From Dehalococcoides mccartyi 195 (GTDB taxonomy: Bacteria; Chloroflexota; Dehalococcoidia; Dehalococcoidales; Dehalococcoidaceae), in assembly GCF_000011905.1 (NCBI RefSeq), contig NC_002936.3:1116001-1180000 (forward strand): DNA of 64,000 nt. The letters run 5' to 3'. The position numbers and the translations under genes are program-made. Positions within the stretch are counted from its first letter, which is position 1, and the number at the start of each line of letters is the position of its first letter. The notes beneath the pieces were generated by a model that made no database searches, was not told the DNA's origin, and saw only the letters and a program-made list of their open reading frames with translations. Below are positions 11,121 to 15,764 of this stretch, piece after piece.

Positions 11121-11522
11121 TTACGATACTCTTTCATATTTGAAATAGTAATACCAGGCAGTTCCTGAATGCGTAACCAAGAGAACTTTAAACGCAATTG
11201 CCTCTTCGGGTTTTACTCCATCTATAGAGTAAATTACGGGATTAAGCCTGCCACAATCGTCCGGAGATAATAAGCTGCCAGTTGTATATTCAGCGGCAGT
11301 ACTAGTTGCCGCATCATAAGTTCCTAAAGGATGTATATTAGTTAATACCTGCTGCTTAGCTACTATTTTGCCTGTATTAAGATATAAATGCCCCTGGTAA
11401 GTTATTTCCGAAGGCACTGGGGTTGTCCCCCATAACACTTCGTCACTATCGCACCCGGTAAAACTTAATGCGGAAAAAGTGAGTATACTAAGTATTCCCA
11501 ATAAGATTATTCTGTTTTTCAT
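11121..11522 (-). CDS. Small lipoprotein, unknown function
   Basis: Starts MKNRIILLGILSILTFSAL and continues FTGCDSDEVLWG: a signal peptide with a lipobox-type FTGC, so a membrane-anchored lipoprotein of 133 residues is predicted. The frame extends to a TTG at 11540, but the ATG at 11522 begins the signal peptide cleanly and has GGCGGG upstream. The mature part has no family I recognise. Its base composition is more AT-rich than the flanking housekeeping genes, consistent with accessory DNA. Confidence 0.6.
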   Translation of the reverse strand: MKNRIILLGILSILTFSALSFTGCDSDEVLWGTTPVPSEITYQGHLYLNTGKIVAKQQVLTNIHPLGTYDAATSTAAEYTTGSLLSPDDCGRLNPVIYSIDGVKPEEAIAFKVLLVTHSGTAWYYYFKYERVS

Positions 11523-11623
11523 TTTAATCCCGCCCGGCAATATAATATTGCGTAAACAAATAGCACCACTTCTGTATTGTCTGGATTATCCATGGCAAAA
11601 AACTGTCAGCAGCGCTGCATGAT

Positions 11624-11833
11624 TCATTTACGCAGGATAAGATACGCTATTGAACCCAGAGGGGGGAGCAAAAAGGTAAAGATACCCCAGAATAGGTATG
11701 AGGACATCTGATAGCCACGTTTTTTGGCATCCCGCACAACAAGTATAGTGAACAAAACACTCATAACCAGCCACAAGAAAATTGGCGGGCTCAGCAAAAT
11801 AGACCATATTTCATGCCAACCGAATACCGGCAT
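11624..11833 (-). CDS. Small two-span membrane protein, cardiolipin-synthase N-terminus-like
   Basis: A 69-residue protein with two hydrophobic spans (IWSILLSPPIFLWLVMSVLFT and SYLFWGIFTFLLPPLGSIAY) separated by a basic loop VRDAKKRGYQ. The pattern span - DAKKRG - FWG..T...P..G-x-x-x-Y-L resembles the short membrane domain found before phospholipase-D-type cardiolipin synthases and in stand-alone small proteins. An AGGAGG ribosome site sits 7-8 bases before the ATG, so it is very likely translated. Function unknown. Confidence 0.65.
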   Translation of the reverse strand: MPVFGWHEIWSILLSPPIFLWLVMSVLFTILVVRDAKKRGYQMSSYLFWGIFTFLLPPLGSIAYLILRK

Positions 11834-12015
11834 TTTTTAATTCCTCCTGTTATTTTTCAGAATGTAAGGCAGTATCTTAAGATTAATTATCAGGCTTATC
11901 CCCTTTTACAGCAACTGACTTAGTTTACAAACTTAATCTGAACTGAAAATGAATAACCCGGATAAACTTTCTACAAATGCAGACATTTTCGTTAATCTGC
12001 ACCCGGACTGAATGC

Positions 12016-12023: not shown

Positions 12024-12701
12024 ATGCTGATGAAACTGCTGTTAATCGAAGATGATGCCAATCTGGCAAAAGTCATTACTTCCGGTCTTGAAGAAAATGG
12101 ATATGCAGTCAATTGGGAGTCCAATGGCAAACTTGGAGCTGAAATGGCTTTGGCCTATACCTTTGATGTCATCATCCTGGATATAATGCTGCCTGAACTT
12201 GATGGTTTCGCTGTATGCCATAAAATCCGCTCCAATGGCAATCAAACCCCCATCATAATGCTGACCGCCAGGTATCAGGAAGCTGACAAAGTAAATGGGC
12301 TTAACTGCGGAGCGGATGATTACCTGGTGAAACCTTTCAGCTTCCCCGAACTGCTTGCCCGCCTGAGAGCCTTGCTAAGACGGGCCAATAACCAGCATTC
12401 TCCCTCTATCAAGCTCAGGAAACTTACTTTAAACACAGTGGACAGAAGAGCTTTTTACGATGGCAGGGAAATAGAGCTTACGGCTAAAGAATACGGCATT
12501 CTTGAATATTTGGTACTGAACAAGAACTGCATAATTACCAAGAATATGATTGAAGAGCATATCTGGGAATCTGAAAGTGACATTTTTTCCAATGTCATAG
12601 AAGTGTTAATCAGCCGTATCCGCAAGAAACTGGACAACAATAATAAAAATTCTCTTATAAAAACGGTAAAAGGGTTAGGGTATATTATTGAGGATAAATA
12701 G
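12024..12701 (+). CDS. OmpR/PhoB-family response regulator (orphan)
   Basis: A 225-residue regulator with an N-terminal receiver domain and a C-terminal winged-helix DNA-binding domain. The acidic pocket is IEDD (9-11), the phosphorylated aspartate is D53 in ILDIMLPELD, and the switch lysine is in YLVKPFS (about 104). The winged helix ends SNVIEVLISRIRKKLD and VKGLGYII. Start could be ATG 12024 or 12030. The stop overlaps a 25-codon stub that looks like the N-terminus of a histidine kinase, so the partner kinase has apparently been lost. The product should still bind DNA; how it is phosphorylated now is unknown. Confidence 0.92.
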   Translation: MLMKLLLIEDDANLAKVITSGLEENGYAVNWESNGKLGAEMALAYTFDVIILDIMLPELDGFAVCHKIRSNGNQTPIIMLTARYQEADKVNGLNCGADDYLVKPFSFPELLARLRALLRRANNQHSPSIKLRKLTLNTVDRRAFYDGREIELTAKEYGILEYLVLNKNCIITKNMIEEHIWESESDIFSNVIEVLISRIRKKLDNNNKNSLIKTVKGLGYIIEDK

Positions 12702-12765
12702 CCTGCGAACTAAGTCAGCCGTCTTTTTCGCCGTTATCATCAGCTTTCAGACTGAAACAGCCTGA
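12688..12765 (+). pseudogene. N-terminal stub of a histidine kinase
   Basis: A TTG at 12688, overlapping the end of the response regulator in the way such gene pairs usually do, opens a frame reading MRINSLRTKSAVFFAVIIS before a stop at 12763-12765. The basic SLRTK stretch followed by an aromatic hydrophobic span is how many membrane sensor kinases begin. The rest of a kinase is absent from the next 170 bases, which hold only stop-filled sequence before the convergent kinase gene. I infer a deletion that removed nearly all of the cognate kinase. The match is short, so chance similarity remains possible. Confidence 0.45.
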
Positions 12766-12934: not shown

Positions 12935-14281
12935 CTATACCGACTGCTTGGGCAAAAATACCTTAAAGACAGTGCCTTTGCCCGGTTCACTTTCCACCTC
13001 AACCCGCCCTTTGTATATCTCAGAGGTACTCTTTACTATAGATAAACCTAAGCCAGTACCTTCTGCACTCCAATCAGCCCGGTAAAACCTGTCAAATATA
13101 CGGGGGAGGTGCTCCTTACTTATCCCAATTCCGGTATCTTTTATGGCAAGCACCATAAACCCGCTTTCGTCTCTAAGGGAAATCATTACCTGCCCTCCGT
13201 CAGGGGTATACTTGGCAGCATTTGAAAAAAGATTATCAAAGAGACGGCTGAACTGTTCGGGCTCTCCGTATATGTTTAAACCGGGCTGGATATCCCGAAT
13301 CAGCTTAATCTTTTTCGTTTCAAAAGCGGTCTGCCATTTATCAGCACTGCTTTCCAGGGCAGCACCCAAATCTATTTTCAAGCTTAGAGCCGGACGCGGA
13401 CCGGCATCCAGACTGGCCAGAGCCATCAAATCATCAATAATCAGCGCCATTTTCTCAACTTGCTTTACAATATTCTTAAAAGCCTGACGGTATTCCTCGG
13501 TATTCCGCTCTTTGCGAAGCGCCAACTCGGATTCCGCCCTAATTACCGTAAGCGGGGCTTTCAAATCATGGGAGGCATCAGAAGTAAAGCGGTGCTGGCT
13601 TTGAATAAACCCGTAAACCCGGTCAAAAAGTGAATTTAAGGTTGCCGAAAGCTGGCCTAATTCATCATTTTGTTTCACCGGAATACGGTCTTTCAGGTCA
13701 GACGGATTTATATTATTGGTGGTATGGGTGATTACCTGAACCTGTTTTAAACACCGGTAAGCCAAAAAATAGCCTAAGGCAGCGGCGATAATAAGGACAA
13801 AGGGAATGGCCATAAAGAGAATCTGTTTATACTGATCCAGAGTTTTATAAATATACCCGGCATCACCCACAAGTATAAGGAGCTGGTTGGGCTTATAATC
13901 ATTATCATACCAGGCTACATAAAACCTTAACTGGGAATCCGGAATTTCCAAGCGCATGGCGGGCATATACTCATTTATGGCGGTTATGTCGGCAATGGAA
14001 TCCTGGATAACAGATTTGTACCTTTCACTCCCGGATATAAGACCGGTTTCAATATCATATATATAAACCACTTCCGCAAACACATCCCCCGCATAATACA
14101 GGCTATTGCCCTCAGATCGGATAATTTCTCCGGCTGCTTTTTCAGCATCAGCCGCCAAAGAATCATTCAGGCTGCTGAATAAATGGTAAGACAAAAAGAA
14201 GTACGATATGAGACCAAAAAACCCAAGTACCGAGAGCAATACCAGGGCATTAATAATGGTCAGCTTTATCTTTACGCTCAT
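12935..14281 (-). CDS. Membrane sensor histidine kinase with HAMP domain
   Basis: A 448-residue two-span kinase. Span 1 is about residues 8-30, an extracytoplasmic sensor region covers about 31-152, and span 2 about 153-175 is followed by HAMP. The phosphorylated histidine is H238 in DASHDLKAPLTVIRAESEL. ATP-binding boxes follow: N box FDNLFSNAAKYTPDGG, G1 IKDTGIGIS, F box FDRFYRADWS and G2 GTGLGLSIVK. The start codon overlaps the stop of the response regulator by 4 bp (ATGA), so the two form an operon. The signal is unknown. Convergent to the orphan regulator. Confidence 0.95.
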   Translation of the reverse strand: MSVKIKLTIINALVLLSVLGFFGLISYFFLSYHLFSSLNDSLAADAEKAAGEIIRSEGNSLYYAGDVFAEVVYIYDIETGLISGSERYKSVIQDSIADITAINEYMPAMRLEIPDSQLRFYVAWYDNDYKPNQLLILVGDAGYIYKTLDQYKQILFMAIPFVLIIAAALGYFLAYRCLKQVQVITHTTNNINPSDLKDRIPVKQNDELGQLSATLNSLFDRVYGFIQSQHRFTSDASHDLKAPLTVIRAESELALRKERNTEEYRQAFKNIVKQVEKMALIIDDLMALASLDAGPRPALSLKIDLGAALESSADKWQTAFETKKIKLIRDIQPGLNIYGEPEQFSRLFDNLFSNAAKYTPDGGQVMISLRDESGFMVLAIKDTGIGISKEHLPRIFDRFYRADWSAEGTGLGLSIVKSTSEIYKGRVEVESEPGKGTVFKVFLPKQSV

Positions 14282-14946
14282 CTATCCAGCCTGTATCCCG
14301 CCCCGCGCAAGGTCTTAATAGGGCCGCTTTTTGCATCCCAGCCCAGCTTTTGGCGCAACTTTTTTATCAGGGAATCAATAGTATTGGAGACAGATGTGCT
14401 TTCCGCCCCCCAAAGATGCTCCTCCAGCATGGACCGGGTGATAAGAACACCGGGATTGGTAATAAAATATTCCAGTATTTTATATTCTGCCGCTGTAAGC
14501 TTTATCTCGGTTTTCCCGCCGCAAACCCGGTGGGATACATTGTCAAAAGAAATGCCGGCTGTTTCAACAACCGGCAATACCCTCAGAGGCGGCCTCCGCT
14601 GAAGTGCCCGTATCCGGGCAAACAGTTCATCACAGGCAAAAGGCTTGCAAAGGTAGTCATCCGCACCGGCATCCAAACCCTTTACCTTTGAATCAAGCGA
14701 ATCTCTGGCGGTAAGCATGAGCACAGATGTAACTATGCCGTCAGCCCTGAGCTTCCGGCAGACCTCAATACCATTTTTATCCGGCAAGCCGATATCCAGA
14801 ATCAATAGGTCAAATTCAGAATTTGCGGCAAAGTATTCTCCCGAAGCCCCGTCACAGGCATATTCAACCACATGCCCGGCCTCACCGAGAGCCCGCTCCA
14901 GGGTTTGGCAGAGACACTTATCATCATCAAGTAATAAAATCCGCAC
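14278..14946 (-). CDS. OmpR/PhoB-family response regulator, partner of the adjacent kinase
   Basis: A 222-residue regulator: receiver domain with LDDD (6-9), phosphorylated D51 in LILDIGLPDKNG and lysine in YLCKPF, then a winged helix ending SLIKKLRQKLG and LRGAGYRL. The GTG start at 14946 has AAAAGG upstream. It is first in an operon with the kinase. The divergent gene at 15093 encodes a secreted protein and its upstream region holds four 11-bp-spaced TCAT repeats, which fit the tandem direct-repeat sites used by this regulator family. I infer this regulator controls that gene. Confidence 0.95.
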   Translation of the reverse strand: MRILLLDDDKCLCQTLERALGEAGHVVEYACDGASGEYFAANSEFDLLILDIGLPDKNGIEVCRKLRADGIVTSVLMLTARDSLDSKVKGLDAGADDYLCKPFACDELFARIRALQRRPPLRVLPVVETAGISFDNVSHRVCGGKTEIKLTAAEYKILEYFITNPGVLITRSMLEEHLWGAESTSVSNTIDSLIKKLRQKLGWDAKSGPIKTLRGAGYRLDR

Positions 14947-15010
14947 GCCGCAAAGCCTTTTACCTGTTAATCATTCATAATTCCTATAATAGCACTATTT
15001 TGGCCTCAGC

Positions 15011-15054
15011 GGTCATCCAATAATCATCTTTTGGTCATTTATTGTTCATCTTTA
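15011..15054 (+). promoter_or_regulatory. Four tandem 11-bp repeats, likely OmpR/PhoB-type operator
   Basis: Four consecutive 11-bp units each carry TCAT at the same place (15013, 15024, 15035, 15046): ggTCATccaat, aaTCATctttt, ggTCATttatt, gtTCATcttta. The spacing equals one helical turn, as in PhoB boxes, where each repeat binds one winged-helix monomer. The array ends directly before a -10-like TATGCT (15055-15060) of the gene at 15093, where a -35 box would otherwise lie. It is read as an activator site. Confidence 0.72.
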
Positions 15055-15092
15055 TATGCTAGGCTTGTACTAATCAGCTATGAGGAGTAATT

Positions 15093-15764
15093 ATGATTAG
15101 AGTATTAGCCTCGGTATTACTCGGTGTCATGGTATCCGCCCTGCCGGTTGCAGCCAATGTATCAGCGGCAGAAATAGCAAGCAAGTATTATCCGAATCCC
15201 CAGGTCTTTGACAACACTTATGGCACTATCCTCAGCCCTTCGGAAATAGTGGCCCTATACCCTATGTCCGCAGAAGATGAAGCCAAACTAATTCAGGTTG
15301 TACCCCAATGCCCGGTAAATGTAGACGGAGTATGGTATAAAGCAGAGGAAATCACCCTTTTCAACGGGCATCAGCTTCACTTTACTACAGATAAAAAAGG
15401 CGGGTTATACGCTTTTACTGATGCCAGAGCCATGGAAATATTCCTTGAAGCAGAATACGGGGATATATTCAATACTTCCACTGACAAAGCGATGCAGATG
15501 CTGCGGCTGGACCGCAGCGAACTATTTGCAGACTGGCTGTACTCAGGCAACCTTATGCTGCTTGACCCTTATGCCCAAATATCTAATCTGGCAACGCTGG
15601 GCTGGGATAACCAAATCTCCTCCGCTCAGATTTGCAGTTCCGCACCGGTTACACTTTGGGAGTATTCCGGTTTTCAAGGCAGCAGCTTTACCATGCTGGC
15701 GGATTCAAGCCATGCGGCTTTGACTTTTGAAGGCTGGAACGACAGGGCATCAGCTATATCTTAA
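15093..15764 (+). CDS. Secreted protein with C-terminal beta/gamma-crystallin-like motif
   Basis: A 223-residue exported protein. Residues 1-26 form a signal peptide (LASVLLGVMVSALPVAANVSA, cleavage near 25). The middle (about 30-180) is unrecognised and contains two cysteines (C73, C181) that could pair outside the cell. The last 38 residues match a beta/gamma-crystallin Greek-key motif: W189-x4-F194-x-G196 and the calcium-binding pattern N216-D217-R-A-S220, with alanine at 221 where serine is usual. Only one motif is evident, whereas a full domain has two. A GAGGAG ribosome site precedes the ATG. The divergent two-component operon and upstream repeats suggest signal-dependent expression. 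Confidence 0.7.
   Translation: MIRVLASVLLGVMVSALPVAANVSAAEIASKYYPNPQVFDNTYGTILSPSEIVALYPMSAEDEAKLIQVVPQCPVNVDGVWYKAEEITLFNGHQLHFTTDKKGGLYAFTDARAMEIFLEAEYGDIFNTSTDKAMQMLRLDRSELFADWLYSGNLMLLDPYAQISNLATLGWDNQISSAQICSSAPVTLWEYSGFQGSSFTMLADSSHAALTFEGWNDRASAIS

Follow-up and report, generated by a model that had tools for sequence, protein, structure and literature searches.

The 64-kb window (the whole stretch of DNA analysed, positions 1116001-1180000 of a 1,469,720-bp genome) contains four TCAT repeats that are very probably the operator of the adjacent two-component system, an OmpR/PhoB-type activator site that would drive the gene at 15093. This gene encodes an exported protein predicted to end in a beta/gamma-crystallin domain. 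Judged by its sequence and its relatives, the TCAT array is a real operator, conserved across Dehalococcoidia, yet the general type of site is already well known. The features of the locus are given in Table 1.

Table 1. Coordinates within the window of the array, its promoter and the neighbouring genes and sites
Feature	Positions	Strand	Basis
Putative operator: four 11-bp direct half-sites, core TCAT	15013..15056	+	Sequence; conservation in G002 and G005 (L004)
Extended -10 TGCTAGGCT (TG-C-TAGGCT): TG 15057-15058, hexamer TAGGCT 15060-15065	15057..15065	+	Predicted from aligned promoters
Likely ribosome-binding site GAGGAG of the 15093 gene	15082..15087	+	Sequence
Exported protein, 223 aa: signal peptide-like N terminus, conserved middle, predicted C-terminal beta/gamma-crystallin / I36-like domain	15093..15764	+	Domain search and structure model
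Extended -10-like TGCTATTAT for the regulator/kinase operon	14986..14994	-	Sequence; equal in G002
OmpR/PhoB-family response regulator, GTG start, proposed to bind the array	14278..14946	-	Pfam Response_reg and Trans_reg_C
Sensor histidine kinase (HAMP, HisKA, HATPase_c), overlapping the regulator gene in the same operon	12935..14281	-	Domain search
Second OmpR-type regulator, 43% identical to the first; kinase apparently reduced to an N-terminal remnant	12024..12701	+	Sequence
Second, weaker site TCAT-N7-TCAG-N7-TTG-TAAACT, divergent from the 12024 regulator	11922..11952	-	Sequence
69-aa membrane ORF downstream of the second site	11624..11833	-	Sequence

The array and its promoter

A preliminary description of this DNA placed TCAT cores at 15013, 15024, 15035 and 15046 on the forward strand; these positions were confirmed by reading the sequence, with a step of exactly 11 bp, and no other fourfold TCAT array of this spacing exists in the genome (one occurrence, none in the reversed control, against a chance expectation of about 0.0007 per genome). 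On the forward strand of the window, TCAT is the sole 4-mer with four copies at a constant spacing (9-23 bp), while in sequences generated under a dinucleotide model such arrays, whatever the word, numbered 0.125 per window and never had the 11-bp step. When one mismatch was allowed, no further sites were found in this genome (G000), and the few matches in G001 and G002 resembled chance. The array can also be read as two 22-bp units, GGTCATCCAATAATCATCTTT and GGTCATTTATTGTTCATCTTT, which are 76% alike.

The array was also said to end exactly at a -10 box. The conserved -10 is not at 15054; the element that relatives share is the predicted extended -10 TGCTAGGCT further on, which begins seven bases past the last TCAT, that is, after one more 11-bp step, and this distance is conserved in relatives. 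In an alignment of 12 promoters anchored on TGNTANNNT, the half-sites come into register, and the extended -10 lies at an equal distance in all twelve. None of the aligned promoters has a -35 element, so that the extended -10 stands alone, and in each the proximal site overlaps the -35 position at a fixed distance from the predicted -10. The hexamer TAGGCT is a weak -10.

The neighbours on both sides are those named earlier, a kinase/regulator operon and a divergent gene for an exported protein, and both the receiver and the winged-helix (Trans_reg_C) domains of the regulator are present by Pfam. The kinase would sense a signal and phosphorylate this regulator, which would then occupy the direct half-sites head to tail, with one monomer per helical turn and two dimers on the four half-sites. 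From the -35 position, the proximal pair would recruit RNA polymerase to the extended -10 and replace the missing -35 contacts, in the manner known from PhoB (PMC3348028, PMC4415409), and the exported protein would be switched on as a result. The same array may also control the operon of its own regulator, because 22 bp (2 x 11) separate TGCTATTAT from the half-site closest to it and both the word and the distance are identical in G002. A fourfold array is not unusual, since most ArcA sites have three to five repeats, mainly with 11-bp centre-to-centre spacing (PMC3798270).

Related genomes and the extent of the regulon

Homologues of the 15093 gene are found in G002 (70%), G003, G005 and G007, as well as in G246, G177 and Dehalococcoidales MAGs, two of whose loci with such homologues (L043 and L044) show the promoter layout. 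The shared layout, in promoters that precede these genes and are divergent from a regulator, consists of a half-site, 7 bases, a half-site, 7 bases, TG, one base and TANNNT. Four TCAT copies occur in G000, G002 and G005 (L004), and the other aligned promoters have two half-sites. The letters of the half-sites drift (TCAT, TCAG, ACAG, TAAT), but neither the 11-bp step nor the spacing to the -10 changes, which makes these sites a natural resource for work on the evolution of regulator specificity. Between G000 and G002, 16/16 core bases are kept versus 19/28 spacer bases (p = 0.016).

Orthologues of the regulator elsewhere are likewise divergent from such sites. In the 200 bp divergent from the start of the 15 closest regulator homologues, TCAT-N7-TCAT was present in ten, compared with a mean of 0.15 and a maximum of 2 in 500 dinucleotide shuffles, and the full pattern of two TCAT half-sites and an extended -10 was present in 8/15, compared with none in the 500 shuffles; related promoters are not independent samples, and these shuffle statistics overstate the evidence somewhat. 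Among spacings of 6-23 bp tested in the same homologues, 11 bp gave 10 matches and 22 bp gave 6, while 10 and 12 bp gave none. The regulator, the target and the array are all absent from G001, a sister species in the same genus. The preliminary description had considered the array an OmpR/PhoB-type site, and had proposed to look in relatives with both genes for loss of the 11-bp spacing. The spacing is retained there and, together with the joint absence from G001, supports this assignment.

The array does not accompany every relative of the regulator: G004 and G008 encode homologues (about 49% identical) without such a site. In G006 and G177 (L073) the site precedes a different protein with an exported-looking N terminus, and therefore tracks the regulator and not the crystallin gene; the single G006 match is divergent from a regulator homologue. 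In the exported protein at G006 L019 a CxxCH motif comes after a very long run of PT repeats, and this may be a heme protein anchored at the surface. In G177 the crystallin gene (L051) is located next to the kinase gene, at its far end, and is preceded by a four-unit array of its own, TTCAT/TTCAT/TTAAT/TTCAT; the array in front of the regulator on that contig (L079) shows the same pattern. These twin arrays are the best sequence evidence that a regulator of this type would control a gene of this type. In G011 an array (L075) is divergent from the regulator, while a separate pattern match on contig 4 has no adjacent regulator and was taken as chance. Two more four-unit arrays in G005 (L011/L031 and L012/L028) precede only C-terminal fragments of crystallin genes, and are duplicated, decayed copies of the module.

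Counts of the full, strict pattern were one each in G000, G002 and G006 and 10, 7 and 8 in the sister-genus genomes G003, G005 and G007, and the reversed controls gave none. With a single perfect site in this genome, the regulon may comprise just one target here. Genes downstream of the sister-genus sites encode crystallin-type proteins, DUF6612 lipoproteins, ABC-2 permeases, small membrane proteins and a sigma-factor-like protein, and many of these sites have an extended -10 close to TGGTATAAT. Judging from the types of gene, the cell envelope would be the common theme of these targets. The proposal of a signal-response module is supported by the co-occurrence of array, regulator and target, with the refinement that the sister-genus sites serve several envelope genes and not one dedicated target. 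We tentatively entertain, as possible rather than probable, a Dehalococcoidales-wide envelope-response regulon in which a family of regulators reads TTCAT-type 11-bp arrays to control secreted crystallin-domain proteins, lipoproteins and ABC-2 exporters, and which has shrunk to one or two targets in Dehalococcoides; such a regulon could respond to calcium or to surface-layer stress in bacteria that lack a normal cell wall. In G003 (L018) the gene for a sigma-70-like (ECF type) protein is preceded by a TCAT-type site with an extended -10, and the regulon could in this way be tied to a sigma cascade. In G007 (L085) another regulator paralogue and an ABC-2-like permease gene diverge from a site that has the 11-bp geometry but TTAA-type letters (GTTAAGGTTAGGTTAATGTCGGGGTGGTACAAT), hinting at paralogues with altered specificity.

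The exported protein

No Pfam or NCBIfam family matches the 15093 protein at the standard threshold. Its C terminus has a weak match to Inhibitor_I36 and beta/gamma-crystallin, and the match is clear in some homologues. A structure model built from 16 sequences (mean pLDDT 83, above 90 within the domain) superseded a poor model from 7 sequences (pLDDT 63.7), and predicts a fold of two Greek-key motifs. Foldseek paired the modelled domain with beta/gamma-crystallin domains of known structure, among them Protein S and a Clostridium domain, at a best E of 5e-6. The likeness to Protein S, clostrillin and spherulin 3a is in the C-terminal fold, with E values of about 5e-6 to 5e-4 and a TM-score to the target of about 0.8 for single-domain chains. 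In contrast to the known beta/gamma-crystallin proteins, the 15093 protein carries a conserved stretch of ~90 residues (about 45-125) ahead of the domain and reaches the cut-off of no Pfam family. The calcium motif of beta/gamma-crystallin domains is N/D-N/D-X-X-S/T-S; in the 15093 protein the first candidate for it (DNQISS) fits, and the second is NDRASA here and NDRASS in most relatives. A search of the literature for a crystallin protein or for such repeats in Dehalococcoides found none.

Known systems and competing readings

Several OmpR-family systems resemble the array. The HssR repeat, GTTCATATT with an 11-bp step, presumably shares the TTCAT core with the array; a literature search for this consensus found nothing useful. 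The window locus differs from HssR/hrtAB in having no hrtAB heme exporter, the neighbour being the exported crystallin-domain protein, and heme sensing is not indicated. The HssR and HitR systems of Gram-positive heme and envelope stress also pair a kinase and a regulator with a direct repeat, in which a few bases set the specificity (PMC3968170). The sites of ArcA in E. coli, three to five direct repeats mainly 11 bp apart and bound by an OmpR-family regulator (PMC3798270), are alike in form, but ArcA is a global redox regulator whereas the array is divergent from its own regulator gene. Promoters with PHO boxes, for example in E. coli, share tandem 11-nt direct repeats over the -35, letters that diverge between species and activation through sigma (PMC4415409, PMC3348028); the array differs in its regulator, its targets, its TCAT core and its extended -10, and the genome has its own PhoB elsewhere.

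PHO boxes consist of two 11-nt direct repeats (PMC4415409), and the equal geometry could suggest that the array is itself a pho box under phosphate control. This is very unlikely and the identity was rejected: this genome has its PhoB/PhoR-like pair next to pst and phoU, at about 133-135 kb, the 14278 regulator scores below the NCBIfam PhoB cut-off (177 vs 296 bits), and the likely pst promoter has 11-bp repeats whose core is different and of CTTAA type (CCTTAAC/CCTTTAT/CCTTAAT), with TAAACT following at the same distance. A repressor operator, at which a regulator in the -35 position would block polymerase, is improbable. The overlap of the sites with the place of the -35 speaks for it, but an extended -10 without a -35 is what would be expected if an activator replaced the -35 contacts, and the fixed distance to the -10 fits the contact with sigma modelled for PhoB, whose sites overlap the -35 (PMC3348028).

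A site read mainly by the other OmpR-type regulator (12024-12701), or by both through cross-regulation, is also unlikely. This protein is encoded nearby, is similar to the 14278 regulator, has apparently lost its kinase, and has a divergent site of equal geometry with TCAT and TCAG half-sites; across genomes, however, the array accompanies homologues of the 14278 regulator (78-45% identical), and G002 keeps the array without a close counterpart of the second regulator, its next-best match being 41% identical and far away. Chance repetition or a functionless, decaying tandem duplication is hardly credible, even though the likeness between the halves may stem from a 22-bp duplication: the cores are conserved, the spacing is fixed, and the pattern recurs in related genomes versus zero in controls. 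The reading of the array as an activator site of the 14278 regulator matters for the wider group. Dehalococcoides and Dehalogenimonas are key organohalide-respiring bacteria in which most targets of two-component systems are still to be assigned, and a 2026 comparative study calls for verifying the role of the two-component systems near dehalogenase genes (PMC13390414). With a sequence-defined site, a named regulator and a target, one such system becomes directly testable.

The pst cluster offers an internal comparison. A candidate pho box upstream of it (L091:3400-3460, at about 135.4 kb in G000) has three 11-bp CCTTAA-type repeats before TAAACT. If this stretch is the pst promoter, as its placement suggests, it would share its architecture with the TCAT array and differ in letters and regulator. 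The 12024 regulator seems orphaned. After it, at 12701-12765 of the window, is a short open remnant (RINSLRTKSAVFFAVIISFQTETA, then a stop) of about 25 codons that resembles the start of a deleted histidine kinase. On the other side, beyond the 69-aa ORF, is a lipoprotein gene (11121-11540), and in G002 relatives of these two genes directly follow the crystallin gene.
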